From Pseudomonas reidholzensis (GTDB lineage Bacteria; Pseudomonadota; Gammaproteobacteria; Pseudomonadales; Pseudomonadaceae), in assembly GCF_900536025.1 (NCBI RefSeq), contig NZ_UNOZ01000039.1, positions 1 through 64,000 of the forward strand: a stretch of 64,000 bases of DNA, read 5' to 3'. The number at the start of each line of letters is the position of its first letter. Position 1 is the first letter of the stretch. This document shows, piece after piece, positions 4,607 through 41,552 of this stretch. The position numbers and the translations under genes are program-made. The notes below the pieces were generated by a model. The model did not search any database. It worked only from the letters and a program-made list of their open reading frames with translations, and was not told where the DNA came from.

Positions 4607-5836
4607 TTAGAACAGTACGCGCGAGCGGATGGTGCCCTTGACGTGCTGCAGTTTCTCTTGCGCCAGGTCCGAGTACTCGGCATCGACGTCGATCACCACA
4701 TAACCGACTTTCTCGTCGGTCTGCAGGAACTGACCGGAGATGTTGATCCCGTTTTCGGCGAACACCTTGTTGATTTCGCTGAGCACGCCCGGAATGTTTT
4801 CGTGGATGTGCAGCAGGCGGTGTTTGCCTGGGTGGGCCGGCAGGGCAACTTCCGGGAAGTTGACCGACGACACCGACGTACCGTTGTCGCTGTACTTGAC
4901 CAGCTTCTCGGCCACTTCCAGGCCGATGTTGGCCTGGGCTTCAGCGGTGGAACCGCCGATGTGCGGGGTCAGGATCACGTTGTCCAGGCCACGCAGCGGG
5001 CTTTCGAACTCGTCATCGTTGGAGCGTGGCTCGACCGGGAACACGTCGATGGCGGCGCCGATCAGGTGCTTGTCCTTGATGGCGTTGGCCAGGTGGTCGA
5101 GCTCGACCACGGTGCCACGGGCGGCGTTGATCAGGATAGAGCCCTTCTTCATCGCGCGGATTTCCTTCTCGCCGATCATCCACTGGGTGGACGGCAGCTC
5201 AGGCACGTGCAGCGAGACGATGTCGGCCAGGCCCAGCAGCTCGTTGAGGCTACCCACCTGGGTGGCGTTGCCCAGCGGCAGCTTGGTCAGCGGGTCGAAG
5301 AAGTACACCTGCATGCCGACGCTTTCAGCCAGGACCGACAGCTGGGTACCGATCGAGCCGTAGCCGACGATGCCGAGCTTCTTGCCGCGGATCTCGAACG
5401 AGTTGGCCGCGCTCTTGATCCAGCCACCACGGTGGCAGGCTGCGTTCTTCTCGGGGATGCCGCGCAGCAGCAGGATGGCTTCGGCCAGCACCAGCTCGGC
5501 CACCGAACGGGTGTTCGAGTACGGGGCGTTGAACACGGCGATACCGCGCTCACGGGCCGCGCCCAGGTCAACCTGGTTGGTGCCGATGCAGAAGCAGCCG
5601 ACCGCGACCAGTTTCTTCGCGCAGTCGAAGAGTTCCTCGGTCAGCTGGGTGCGCGAACGAATACCGATGAAATGAGCATCGGCGATCTTTTCTTTCAGCT
5701 GCGCTTCCGGCAACGAACCCGTGTGGTATTCGATGTTGGTGTAGCCGGCAGCCTTGAGAGTATCGACCGCGTTCTGGTGCACACCTTCAAGAAGAAGGAA
5801 CTTGATCTTGCTCTTGTCGAGAGAAGTCTTGCTCAT
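4607..5836 (-). CDS. serA: D-3-phosphoglycerate dehydrogenase SerA
   Basis: This 409-residue enzyme oxidises 3-phosphoglycerate to 3-phosphohydroxypyruvate, the first step of serine synthesis. The NAD-binding motif GYGSIGTQ, the catalytic region LINAARGTVVE and LTPHIGGSTAEAQ are present. The C-terminus is an ACT domain (LLHIHENIPGVLSEINKVF...), as in the E. coli-length form. It is transcribed divergently from the D-2-hydroxyglutarate dehydrogenase gene. In pseudomonads SerA also reduces 2-oxoglutarate to D-2-hydroxyglutarate, which the neighbour reoxidises, so the pairing is functionally sensible. Confidence 0.95.
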   Translation of the reverse strand: MSKTSLDKSKIKFLLLEGVHQNAVDTLKAAGYTNIEYHTGSLPEAQLKEKIADAHFIGIRSRTQLTEELFDCAKKLVAVGCFCIGTNQVDLGAARERGIAVFNAPYSNTRSVAELVLAEAILLLRGIPEKNAACHRGGWIKSAANSFEIRGKKLGIVGYGSIGTQLSVLAESVGMQVYFFDPLTKLPLGNATQVGSLNELLGLADIVSLHVPELPSTQWMIGEKEIRAMKKGSILINAARGTVVELDHLANAIKDKHLIGAAIDVFPVEPRSNDDEFESPLRGLDNVILTPHIGGSTAEAQANIGLEVAEKLVKYSDNGTSVSSVNFPEVALPAHPGKHRLLHIHENIPGVLSEINKVFAENGINISGQFLQTDEKVGYVVIDVDAEYSDLAQEKLQHVKGTIRSRVLF

Positions 5837-16107: not shown

Positions 16108-16184
16108 GGCCTCATCGCGGGCAAGCCCGCTCCTACAGGAAGGTCGCGTACTACTGTAGGAGCGGGCTTGCCCGCGATAAGGCC
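16108..16184. repeat. Inverted REP pair after ptsP
   Basis: The arms at 16108-16138 and 16154-16184 are reverse complements with one mismatch in 31. The core is cgcgggcaagcccgctccta. The pair lies between the convergent ptsP and NRDE genes and could act as a transcript-end structure. Confidence 0.85.
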
Positions 16185-16191
16185 GGTAGGC

Positions 16192-38112: not shown

Positions 38113-39522
38113 CTAGTGGCCGACCACCGCCGGTTCCGGCAAGGGTCGCTGAGCCGCGTTGGGCCCGCCGCTGACAAACACGGCGTGGTCGATGTCCAGC
38201 CAGCGCCGGGCGGCGGCGCGGATGTCGTCAGGCGTCAGCTCGGCCAGCTTGCCTAGATAGGTCGACAAGTGATCTGCCGGCTGCCCCTGCTGGCTATGGC
38301 TGGCCAGGCCGCTGGCAAGCTGGCCGTTGTCGCTCATGCTGTCGAGCAGCTTGCCGGCGAACTGGTTGAGCGCCAGTTGCAGCTCACCCGCGCTCGGCCC
38401 TTGCTCGATCAGGCAGCGGATCAGTTGCAGCACGCGCTCGCGTGAGGCGTCCCTGAAGGCCGGCTCGACGTCCCAGCTGACCACCATGAACCCCCCTTCC
38501 GTCAGGAGCTTCAGATCGGATTCCACGCTGTAGGTCAGCGCCAGGCGGGTGCGCAGCTCCCTCATCAGGCGGGAATCAATGCCTGAACCGAGGATTTCGT
38601 TCGCCATCAACAGGGCCGGGTGTTGTGGGTCCGACGGCGACACTTTGATGGGCAGGGCAAGGGCCATGCGGTTGGAGGTGCCGGGCCAGTCGATGTGCGA
38701 CTGCTTGGGCAGGTTGATCGCAACCGGCGGCAGCGCCGCTGCCGCCCAACCCTGGGGCAATGCCTGGGTGAGGCGGCTGATGATCTGTTGCGCCGCTTCG
38801 CGGGACATATCACCCACCAGGCCTATGTGCAGGTTGTTGGCTGAGTAGGCCCGGCGATGAAAGGTGTGCAGCATTGCCGGCGTCACCTCGGCAATGGCCT
38901 GCTCTGTGCCATAGAGGGAGGTGGCGTAGGGATGGTCGGCGAACAGCTGGCTGATGAGTTCCGTCTGGATGCGTCGATGCAGGCTGGCGTCGGCGCTTTG
39001 CACGGCGACCAGCAGGCGTGCCTTGAGCTTGTCCAGCGCCGCGGCGTCGAAGGCCGGTTGCGCCAGCATTTCCATGAGCAATGCCAAGGCATCGTTACGC
39101 AGGGTTTCGGCACTGAGGCCGCGCAAGGTGATGGTTGCATGTTCGAGTGCAACCGTTCTGGTCATGATCGCGCCCAAGCCTTCGAGCGCTTGCGCGAACG
39201 CCGCGGCATCCCGTTGCTGGGTGCCTTGATCGAGCATGTAAAGGGTCAGCGCCGCGAGACCGGGCCTCTCCCCGTCCAGGGTGGCGCCTGCGCTGAAACG
39301 CAGCACCAGGTCGAACATGGGCTGCTCGTGGCTGGGTGCGAACCGAACGCGGCTGCCGCCCTCGGTCTGCCAGTGCTGGACGTTGCGGTCGATCGGCTCG
39401 AAGCGTCCGAGGTCGAGCCCATGGGTCGACGTCAGGCGGGCGAGATCGGCTTCGGCGATGGCACTGAACGCGCTCGCGCACGCCCCGGTCGGTAGGTTCT
39501 CGATGGCTATCGAGCGGCTCAT
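38113..39522 (-). CDS. M16 peptidase, non-catalytic subunit (second pair)
   Basis: The 469-residue M16-fold protein has no HxxEH motif; the equivalent place reads LAALTLYMLDQG. The substrate-side motif RTRLALTYSV keeps the Arg/Tyr pair found in non-catalytic M16 subunits. There is no signal peptide, unlike the pair at 41.5-44.4 kb. ATG overlaps the stop of the catalytic partner by 4 nt (ATGA), so translation is coupled. It probably forms a heterodimer with that partner. Confidence 0.85.
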   Translation of the reverse strand: MSRSIAIENLPTGACASAFSAIAEADLARLTSTHGLDLGRFEPIDRNVQHWQTEGGSRVRFAPSHEQPMFDLVLRFSAGATLDGERPGLAALTLYMLDQGTQQRDAAAFAQALEGLGAIMTRTVALEHATITLRGLSAETLRNDALALLMEMLAQPAFDAAALDKLKARLLVAVQSADASLHRRIQTELISQLFADHPYATSLYGTEQAIAEVTPAMLHTFHRRAYSANNLHIGLVGDMSREAAQQIISRLTQALPQGWAAAALPPVAINLPKQSHIDWPGTSNRMALALPIKVSPSDPQHPALLMANEILGSGIDSRLMRELRTRLALTYSVESDLKLLTEGGFMVVSWDVEPAFRDASRERVLQLIRCLIEQGPSAGELQLALNQFAGKLLDSMSDNGQLASGLASHSQQGQPADHLSTYLGKLAELTPDDIRAAARRWLDIDHAVFVSGGPNAAQRPLPEPAVVGH

Positions 39523-40853
39523 GGTTGCGCTCCTTGAAAAGTCGTGAGGGTCAGGCGTTGGCGGCTCAGGCAGTCTTGAAGCGCTTGCTGGACGTGGTCG
39601 GCACGGGTCTGCTCGATGAGCTGCAGTTCGTCGTCCGCTAGCGCCGGGTTGCGGCCGCCGATGGCATGCCTGCCGAGCACTTCGCTCTGCGCCTGGAAGC
39701 TGTTGCGCGCATAGATTTGCCGGGCCATCAGGCGCAGCTTCGCGCGTTGCAGGACTTCGGCGGAAAACGGCGTCTGCCTGGCCTCGTCGAGTATTCCCAG
39801 TACCTGCTCGGCGGCTTGCTGGGGAGTCCCTGTGGCAGGGTTGCTGTAGGCCGAAAGTGTCAGCAGGGTGTCGCCGCGCCGCAGGAAGTCATAGTCTGCG
39901 CTGATGCCATTGAACACTGGCTTGTCGCGCACCAGCTGGCCATAGAGCCTGCTACTGAACCCCTGGGCCAGGACTTCTACCGCCAGGCGCAGGGCGTGCA
40001 CGGTCTGTGGCGAGGTGGCGGTGGTCAGGCTCGGCGTGTTGAACGACATGAATAGGCCGTCACGCAGCCCTTGCAGTGTCAGGTTCTGACGCCGCTCCGT
40101 CAGCGCTGCGCTGTGGCGAGGTATGGGCTGGGCGCGCACGGCGACCGCCGGCAAGCCGCCGAACTGACGCTCGACCCATTGCCGCAACTGCTGCGCCGTC
40201 ACCGCGCCGACTACCACCAGCGTGGCGTTGTTGGGGTGGTACCAGCTGGCGTACCAGGTGCGGGCGGTGTCCAGTGTCATCTCGGCCAGGTCGATCGCGT
40301 GGCCAAACACCGGTGCGCCGTAGGGGCTGTCGCCATGGGCCAGGCTCAGGTGTCGGTCATAGGCGAGCTGGTCCGGGGCATTGTCGAATTTGAGCCGACG
40401 CTCATCATCGACCGTTTTGCGTTCCAGCTCGAACTCCGCCGGGTCAAGCCTGGCGCTGGCCATGGTGTCGGCCATGATTTCCAGTGCGACCTCCACGCGA
40501 GCCGACGGCAGCGTCACGTCGAACACCGTGGCATCGTCCCGGGTCGAGGCATTCGACTGCCCACCGAGTTGACCGAGGATGCGCGAATATTGCCCAGGCG
40601 CCAGTTTGCTGCTGCCCTGGAATATCAGGTGTTCGAGCAGATGCGACAGGTTGGAGTGGCCGTTGGGCTCGTGGCTGGTGCCGACGTGGTACCAGAGTTG
40701 GACGCTTGCCTGGGGGACCCGATGGTCTTCCCGCAGGTACACCGTCAGGCCGTTGGCGAGGCTGAAGTGATGCAGCGGCTGGGCAGGCGTCGAGGCCAGC
40801 GTGCCGAGGCTCGTGGCGAGGGTCCGGGACGGGTCTTGAGAGGGGAAAAACAT
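39519..40853 (-). CDS. M16 zinc metallopeptidase, catalytic subunit (second pair)
   Basis: The 444-residue protein contains the inverted zinc motif in LSHLLEHLIFQGS (HxxEH) and a downstream Glu region, ERKTVDDERRL. LYGQLVRDKP marks the partner-binding half. The N-terminus (MFFPSQDPSRTLATSL) is not a signal peptide, so the enzyme should be cytoplasmic. ATG 40853 is the only usable start; an in-frame TGA lies 48 nt upstream. That start sits inside a long hairpin followed by TTTTT. Substrate unknown; processing or degradation of a peptide is likely. Confidence 0.87.
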   Translation of the reverse strand: MFFPSQDPSRTLATSLGTLASTPAQPLHHFSLANGLTVYLREDHRVPQASVQLWYHVGTSHEPNGHSNLSHLLEHLIFQGSSKLAPGQYSRILGQLGGQSNASTRDDATVFDVTLPSARVEVALEIMADTMASARLDPAEFELERKTVDDERRLKFDNAPDQLAYDRHLSLAHGDSPYGAPVFGHAIDLAEMTLDTARTWYASWYHPNNATLVVVGAVTAQQLRQWVERQFGGLPAVAVRAQPIPRHSAALTERRQNLTLQGLRDGLFMSFNTPSLTTATSPQTVHALRLAVEVLAQGFSSRLYGQLVRDKPVFNGISADYDFLRRGDTLLTLSAYSNPATGTPQQAAEQVLGILDEARQTPFSAEVLQRAKLRLMARQIYARNSFQAQSEVLGRHAIGGRNPALADDELQLIEQTRADHVQQALQDCLSRQRLTLTTFQGAQP

Positions 40854-40901
40854 GGCTGAAGTGCTCCGCAGTGGCGATAGGCCGGAGCAGCTTCAGTCAT
40901 G
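40847..40901 (-). promoter_or_regulatory. Hairpin plus T-tract overlapping the M16 start codon
   Basis: On the minus strand, 40901-40851 folds into catg-a-ctgaag-c-tgctccg / cggagca-cttcag-c-catg, with a 14-nt loop (17 pairs, one mismatch, one bulge). TTTTT in codons 2-3 follows. The stem holds both the GGAG SD and the ATG. It looks like an intrinsic terminator or attenuator for rsmD transcripts and a block on translation of the M16 pair. Confidence 0.6.
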
Positions 40902-40949
40902 TGGGGGATGCGCCTGCGTTACATAGTTATGCCGCAGGGCAGGTGCTGA

Positions 40950-41552
40950 TCAGCCGCGCTGCCACAGCGCATAGTGCACCTGGCCGGTTTTCTTCTCGCG
41001 GTGCAGGCGCCAGTTGCCAGGCATTTGCAGCGTGGAAGGGGCGGCTTCGCTTTCGGTGTAGATCCAGGCGCGCTCGCGCAACCACTGGCGCTCTTCCAGC
41101 AGGCTGCAGGTGTTGGCCAGCAGGTCCTGGTGGAAGGGCGGGTCGAGGAAGACCACATCGAACTGCTTTTTCGCCTCGCCATCGAGGTAGCGCAGGGCGT
41201 CGGTCTGGAGGATCTGCCCACGCGGGCAGCGCAGCAGCTCGAGGTTGTCCTTGAGGTTGCTGATCGCCGCCGGGTTGCTGTCCAGCGCTACGGCGTCCTC
41301 GGCCCCGCGCGACAGGGCCTCGAGTACCAGGGCGCCGCTGCCGGTGAAGGCATCCAGCACCTGGGCGCCTTCGATGTAGGGGGCGAGCCAGTTGAACACG
41401 GTTTCACGCACGCGATCAGGCGTTGGGCGCAGGCCCGGGCCCACGGGCACCGCCAGGCGGCGGCTACGCCACTCGCCGGCGATGATGCGCAGGTGGCCCT
41501 GGCCTTGGCTCACGCCCTGATTGGCGCGGGCGGGGGGGGATGGCTTGGCCAT
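40950..41552 (-). CDS. rsmD: 16S rRNA (guanine966-N2)-methyltransferase RsmD
   Basis: The 200-residue methyltransferase has GEWRSRRLAVP and LRPTPDRVRETVFNWL at the N-terminus. The SAM site is VLDAFTGSGALVLEALSRGA and the catalytic motif is FLDPPFHQDLL. It modifies G966 of 16S rRNA during 30S assembly. Its ATG overlaps the stop of the upstream M16 gene by one base (TAATG), so it is in the same operon. Confidence 0.93.
   Translation of the reverse strand: MAKPSPPARANQGVSQGQGHLRIIAGEWRSRRLAVPVGPGLRPTPDRVRETVFNWLAPYIEGAQVLDAFTGSGALVLEALSRGAEDAVALDSNPAAISNLKDNLELLRCPRGQILQTDALRYLDGEAKKQFDVVFLDPPFHQDLLANTCSLLEERQWLRERAWIYTESEAAPSTLQMPGNWRLHREKKTGQVHYALWQRG

Follow-up and report, generated by a model that had tools for sequence, protein, structure and literature searches.

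Protection against read-through transcription is a trick known from mobile elements. Davis, Simons and Kleckner are said to have described in 1985 how Tn10/IS10 is protected from external promoters, the RNA that enters from outside folding so that it hides the translation start, and Beuzon reportedly described in 1999 structures of IS200 that repress transposase synthesis. In IS200, an antisense RNA and Hfq are involved as well, and the tnp leader of ISPpu9, from P. putida, has a structured 5′ end over the ribosome-binding site (RBS) that is proposed to form in the element's own mRNA and to be opened by the antisense RNA Asr9 (PMC8450116). Terminators placed before insertion-sequence genes are stated to prevent expression from outside transcription (PMC2965389). 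Here, we compare with these systems a hairpin found on the minus strand of a 64,000-nucleotide (nt) stretch of Pseudomonas reidholzensis DNA (assembly GCF_900536025.1, contig NZ_UNOZ01000039.1, positions 1 to 64,000; "the window" hereafter), at the start of the first gene of a second pair of M16 peptidase genes, which stands behind rsmD. We consider it likely that this hairpin, which is made in part of the gene's own promoter, serves to lock the translation of read-through RNA, with a putative activator and a predicted transcription start.

The hairpin covers positions 40902-40850 of the minus strand, where the 5′ arm, ACATG-A-CTGAAG-C-TGCTCC, faces the 3′ arm, GGAGCA-CTTCAG-C-CATGT, in 17 pairs (5 + 6 + 6) with one A·C mismatch and one bulged C, while an inner GGC/GCC closes part of the loop. 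It spans both the Shine-Dalgarno (SD) sequence GGAG (40867-40864) and the ATG (40853-40851), with TTTTT immediately 3′ of the latter, as the first-pass annotation of this DNA had described. That annotation had also held that no other in-frame start is available, and indeed a TGA lies in frame 42 nt upstream of the ATG, with no ATG, GTG or TTG in between. The 91-nt stretch folds with a minimum free energy of −27.3 kcal/mol, compared with a mean of −18.75 (standard deviation 2.69) in 200 dinucleotide shuffles, none of which was equally stable (z-score −3.18). A simple terminator scan, restricted to loops of at most 8 nt, did not pick up this hairpin.

The hairpin is real and is conserved beyond what chance would give. 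A first scan of genome contigs found no relative; a protein search of 298 genomes of the genus, cut at E ≤ 2.5e-108, yielded 27 places, including the window's own genome, and G170 (4e-98) and others also belong to the set. Conservation of the stem in relatives had been suggested as a check, and the hairpin is kept in all 27 orthologs, which come mostly from the Pseudomonas putida group: none of them leaves more than 25% of the SD region unpaired at 37 °C, the AUG being less regular (0-55% unpaired), and the z-scores average −3.9 (range −8.7 to −0.4). In three orthologs (L009, L013 and L017), the SD reads CGAG. The named genomes that carry the pair include P. guariconensis, P. putida, P. juntendi, P. 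entomophila, P. monteilii, P. mosselii and others, species that we take to belong to the Pseudomonas putida group. In alignment A1, 83.6% of the cells are paired, compared with 76.6% after shuffling and 34-38% in slid controls, and the covariation score is 0.218, against 0.118 in shuffles, none of the 500 reaching the observed value.

The same 5′ arm contains a −10-like hexamer, which keeps a fixed distance from an operator-like core located farther upstream. This core, TAnnTAnnTAmCrC, is present in nearly all related leaders and stands 71-78 nt 5′ of the ATG in the M16-ortholog leaders that were measured. We gathered 68 leaders (40 of M16 genes and 28 of other genes), defined as cores followed 60-85 nt downstream by an ATG, together with an SD and a long open reading frame (ORF), a definition that loses leaders with CGAG as SD (e.g., L009) and keeps L146 (acyl-CoA dehydrogenase), probably a chance match. 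In 37/40 M16 leaders, NANNCT is found exactly 35 nt after the core (+35, first base to first base), the next best offset having 3 cases, and this spacing is fixed despite a core-to-ATG distance that varies from 70 to 82 nt. Among the 28 non-M16 leaders, nine have TANNCT at +34/+35 and 12 have NANNCT. An independent set was obtained by searching twelve genomes outside the 68 leaders by the core alone, which gave 100 distinct strand-specific matches (among the matches listed, 30 loci plus 60 stretches in five of the twelve genomes, with one G029 site omitted). TA...T is present at +35 in 17 of these 100 listed matches, against a mean of 0.41 at 75 other offsets, none of which has more than 2; TA..CT is present in 13 (mean 0.08 elsewhere). 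When one representative was taken from each of 67 clusters of look-alikes, the counts at +35 were 6 for TA...T (mean 0.35, maximum 2 elsewhere) and 5 for TA..CT (mean 0.07, maximum 1 elsewhere). Additionally, among 37 Pseudomonas-type loci from named genomes (one of them labelled Pantoea), 13 of whose leaders are new sequences, NANNCT stands at +35 in all 33 leaders with a script-recognised core and ATG, the other four deviating or having been missed.

In class II activator promoters, the activator binds at about −42 (CRP at −41.5, LuxR at −42.5) and the −10 box stands at a fixed distance from it. The core-to-hexamer layout fits this geometry, with the dyad centre about 42 nt before the predicted start, and from it we infer that transcription begins at core +47, which is position 40882 and leaves 29 nt to the ATG (19-35 nt in other leaders). 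Since the 5′ arm lies upstream of this predicted start, it would be missing from the gene's own mRNA, and the two RNAs differ markedly in predicted folding. Opening the region from SD to ATG in the window would cost 15.6 kcal/mol in read-through RNA, which agrees with the first-pass claim that RNA arriving from rsmD has a concealed SD and ATG, and 5.1 kcal/mol in the own mRNA. The median costs are 17.2 and 5.4 kcal/mol, respectively, in the 40 M16 leaders (read-through costlier in 40/40), and 11.9 and 5.6 kcal/mol in the 28 other leaders (27/28). For 17 new members, picked by core, +35 hexamer, SD and start and not by folding, they are 11.3 and 5.3 kcal/mol (16/17). RNA from upstream promoters is predicted to be hard to open at SD and ATG, except in three leaders of Vps62-type genes. 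As a control, the median cost over 43 genes that a script called in the window is 6.2 kcal/mol; it moves by 0.5 when these genes are cut at −26, with only 1/43 shifting by at least 6; this single outlier is an ORF start that looked strongly folded because it lies within a long inverted repeat resembling repetitive extragenic palindromes (window 16120-16190). The pairing also exceeds what the shared −10 and SD consensus would provide, as swapped arms fold, on average, worse than matched ones in 2000/2000 permutations (−11.4 vs −15.8 and −17.8 vs −23.4 kcal/mol).

On these grounds, we propose that a putative activator binds the core at about −42 and that RNA polymerase would then use the −10 box within the 5′ arm and start 29 nt before the ATG, producing an mRNA that lacks this arm and whose SD should be much more open. 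By contrast, RNA reading through from rsmD would carry the 5′ arm, which would fold on the SD and ATG and block translation, so that the M16 pair would be expressed only when its own promoter is active.

Similar leaders stand before unrelated genes. When 398 genomes of the genus were searched with a covariance model that combines core and hairpin, 87 matches were obtained at E ≤ 0.1, 41 of them at E ≤ 3.2e-7. Among the part of the weaker matches that was retrieved, five precede ToxA_N genes (L093, L094, L095, L104 and L105), one a Peptidase_M91 gene (L096, where the third TA of the core reads CA and GATGCT is found at +35), and two (L102 and L111) have no long gene behind them. In the window's own genome, a weak match to the model (E 0.23) stands just before a ToxA_N gene, and a pattern search with 22 matches found the leader unit before one Peptidase_M3 gene and two ToxA_N genes. 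The stricter palindrome GNGNTANNTANNTANCNC occurs at 22 sites in 15 genomes, and 18 of these sites have an ORF of at least 100 amino acids (aa) with its ATG 66-81 nt downstream. The Pfam families found downstream of leaders are ToxA_N, M16, M3, Dioxygenase_C, Pyocin_S and Vps62, and five downstream proteins (L188, L216, L219, L220 and L223) had no Pfam match. The nearest upstream ORF of 42 leaders, mostly non-M16, runs in the same direction in 31 cases and is divergent in 11, according to an approximate ORF caller, some of whose frames are false. Ten of the 31 co-directional genes were scanned and all match known families (FlhB-like, DNA polymerase B, DUF2387 in two cases, AsnC-type regulator, FolD-type, EamA, KDPG aldolase, zinc alcohol dehydrogenase and polysaccharide deacetylase), their ends ranging from 3 nt inside the core to 112 nt before it. 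Protection from read-through would be useful at such loci.

These leaders are best read as an undescribed Pseudomonas regulon with an anti-read-through lock in its promoters, the same promoter-lock unit being predicted at toxin-like, bacteriocin and accessory-peptidase genes. The broader proposal, that one activator controls a weapon-like set across Pseudomonas (ToxA_N, S-pyocins, an M91 effector, accessory M16 and M3 peptidases, dioxygenase-like and Vps62-domain genes), often directly behind housekeeping genes and, in most, with the −10 box as part of the anti-Shine-Dalgarno arm, is put forward tentatively, its chances being close to even. We know of no operator that the core TAnnTAnnTAmCrC matches, and searches of open-licence papers for the motif or regulon found nothing on the core. 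The core itself was rejected as a −10 box, as TAnnTAnnTA has no T at the sixth place.

Several observations weigh against this interpretation. The core alone is unspecific, as it is found less often than a reversed control pattern (22 vs 59 in the own genome, 22 vs 29 sites in 15 genomes and 165 vs 323 matches in the twelve genomes), so that many matches are chance or other operators, and only 26 of the 100 core matches have an SD-bearing start at 55-100 nt. The GAnnCT hexamer of the M16 leaders fits sigma-70 poorly, the spacing shared by M16 leaders is partly ancestry, because these leaders are relatives, and the 17 sites with TA...T include related loci (five dioxygenase-like and two HigB/HigA-like, among others). 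Regarding covariation, two measures are unexceptional next to shuffles, the pairs with changes (53/500; seven pairs changed on both sides vs 5.2) and the pair types with changes (47/500), and RNAalifold gives only −0.86 kcal/mol over the whole alignment. The own arm is the single best partner in only 8/28 and 4/40 leaders, and the SD of the predicted own mRNA is, on average, only 25% (M16) or 42% (others) unpaired. In the ToxA_N leaders L171, L176 and L180, a short stem persists in the own mRNA and the SD is 9-13% unpaired. Hardly any lock is predicted for the Vps62-type leaders L200 (3.4 in read-through RNA and 5.3 kcal/mol in own mRNA), L217 (6.3 and 4.9) and L258 (5.3 and 3.1), and the difference is small in L219 (13.7 and 11.2) and L284 (6.8 and 6.6). 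In these three Vps62-domain genes, the core is followed by GATAGT at +35 and by ACTATC just before the SD.

The hairpin could also belong to the gene's own mRNA and be opened by a helper (a small RNA, a protein, the ribosome or temperature), which would make it a true riboregulator. This is unlikely in our judgement, even if the pairing of the SD region in 27/27 orthologs suits it and a parallel exists in ISPpu9, whose structure over the RBS is proposed to be opened by an antisense RNA (PMC8450116). The 5′ arm holds a −10-like hexamer at a fixed distance from the core, Rfam returned no match in the window at gathering score (three weak sub-threshold matches are all on the opposite strand), and no alternative partner of the 5′ arm was noticed, without a systematic search. 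An RNA thermometer was rejected because the SD of the window is predicted to remain fully paired (0.00 unpaired) from 15 to 50 °C. Likewise, an RsmA/CsrA leader was discarded since the GGA of the window sits in the stem and not in an apical loop, other leaders having been judged by eye. A short upstream ORF starting at the ATG within the 5′ arm was dropped because this ATG is absent in many orthologs.

That the hairpin is an intrinsic terminator of rsmD or an attenuator of the M16 pair, as the first-pass annotation held, is now quite improbable. A strong stem followed by five T is certainly present in the window's genome, but TTTT within 3 nt of the ATG occurs in only one of the 68 leaders, the window itself, and at least four T after the ATG in none of the 33 named-genome leaders. 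As the stem is kept in 27/27 orthologs and the T-run is not, it is not primarily a terminator, although local termination may occur in the window's genome alone. The same annotation had concluded that the pair is either almost silent or dependent on attenuation or on a helper that opens the hairpin; given the −10-like hexamer within the 5′ arm at a fixed core spacing, the own mRNA is expected to start after this arm, with a far more open SD, and neither attenuation nor a helper is necessary for expression of the pair. It is slightly less probable still that the inverted repeat acts as DNA, as a second operator or a cruciform, with SD hiding as a side effect: inverted repeats co-vary alike in DNA and RNA, and the core is also dyad-like, but arm sequences vary between gene families, which is not expected of a DNA operator, while the 3′ arm still lies on the SD or ATG in most leaders. 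The palindrome around the core was rejected as a conserved RNA hairpin because of its low scores among the orthologs (Table 1) and because its arms are out of register with the core.

If the lock operates as proposed, it would resemble what is reported for Tn10/IS10, where read-through RNA hides the start and the element's own transcript, begun inside, is free, as predicted here. By analogy, it is best read as working like IS10/IS200 protection, outside any transposon family. The differences are that the genes concerned lie on the chromosome, encode peptidases and toxin-like proteins and have an activator-type operator but no transposase, and that here the −10 box is itself part of the 5′ arm. 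The scanned genes downstream of the leaders (M16, M3, ToxA_N, M91, Pyocin_S and others) do not place them in transposable elements. With IS200, the locus shares a stem over the SD, an antisense RNA and Hfq being reported for IS200 in addition. As with the terminators of insertion sequences, a gene would be shielded from a transcribed neighbourhood, but those terminators act on transcription and the T-run is unconserved here (PMC2965389). The structured 5′ end over the RBS recalls ISPpu9, with the difference that the structure is there placed in the own mRNA (PMC8450116). If true, the arrangement would explain how dangerous or costly genes can sit right behind busy housekeeping genes and escape accidental expression, and it would suggest a role for the second M16 pair in concert with toxins and bacteriocins. 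The arrangement also offers a sequence rule for finding regulon members, namely a core, a −10 hexamer at 35 nt and a hairpin over the SD, and it advises caution, as structures drawn in 5′ untranslated regions from genomic sequence may be promoter sequence that is missing from the real mRNA.

Table 1. Features of the window at the second M16 pair and its leader (window coordinates).
Feature	Position	Strand	Basis
rsmD, co-directional upstream gene, presumed source of read-through RNA	40950..41552	−	Pfam Cons_hypoth95, NCBIfam TIGR00095 RsmD
Imperfect palindrome around the core (CCTGCG...CGCAGG)	40913..40938	−	z ≤ −2.5 in only 8/27 orthologs, mean z −1.0
Operator-like core TAACTATGTAACGC	40916..40929	−	27/27 orthologs fit [TG]AnnT[AG]nnTAnCnC; motif also before unrelated genes
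−10-like hexamer GAAGCT, inside the 5′ arm of the hairpin, core +35 (first base to first base)	40889..40894	−	NANNCT at +35 in leaders
Predicted transcription start, core +47, roughly ± 2 nt	40882	−	Derived from the −10 position
Hairpin hiding SD and ATG; 5′ arm 40902-40884, 3′ arm 40867-40850	40850..40902	−	Folding, conservation, covariation
Shine-Dalgarno GGAG	40864..40867	−	Sequence
First M16 peptidase of the second pair	39519..40853	−	Pfam PF00675, PF05193; protein alignment
Second M16-family protein of the second pair	38113..39522	−	Pfam

The first M16 peptidase carries what we take to be the HxxEH motif. In other genomes, the pair and its leader vary in arrangement. In L108 (G385), a leader unit follows rsmD at 1810-1912, with a core one base off, GAAGCT at +35 and the hairpin, and the M16 pair is absent, a 28-aa ORF and then a YheT-like gene being found where it would stand; this loss is probably a deletion. 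L092 (G392) has two M16 pairs of the second type in tandem, each with its own leader unit (1878-1982 and 4789-4896). In L004, L010 and the first of these pairs in L092, both M16 genes form a single continuous open frame of about 900 aa, which suggests gene fusion in a few genomes.

The core is also found beside HigB/HigA-like toxin-antitoxin pairs (L183, L187, L231 and L268), where the ATG follows 11-13 nt after TACACT, leaving no room for a lock. These sites may be the operator of the antitoxin, but TACACT stands at +35 in all four, the same promoter spacing as in the leaders with a lock. An M3-type peptidase gene with a leader unit is present in L154, L173, L198, L199 and L249; it stands directly behind a DUF2387 gene in L154 and L173 (both scanned), with a look-alike upstream in L198 and L249, which parallels the position of the M16 pair behind rsmD. 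Finally, other genomes have an M16 gene with a signal-like N-terminus behind the same core, with CACAGT at +35 (L057, L184, L232, L251 and L270), and those of L232 and L184 stand behind rsmD or its antisense trace.
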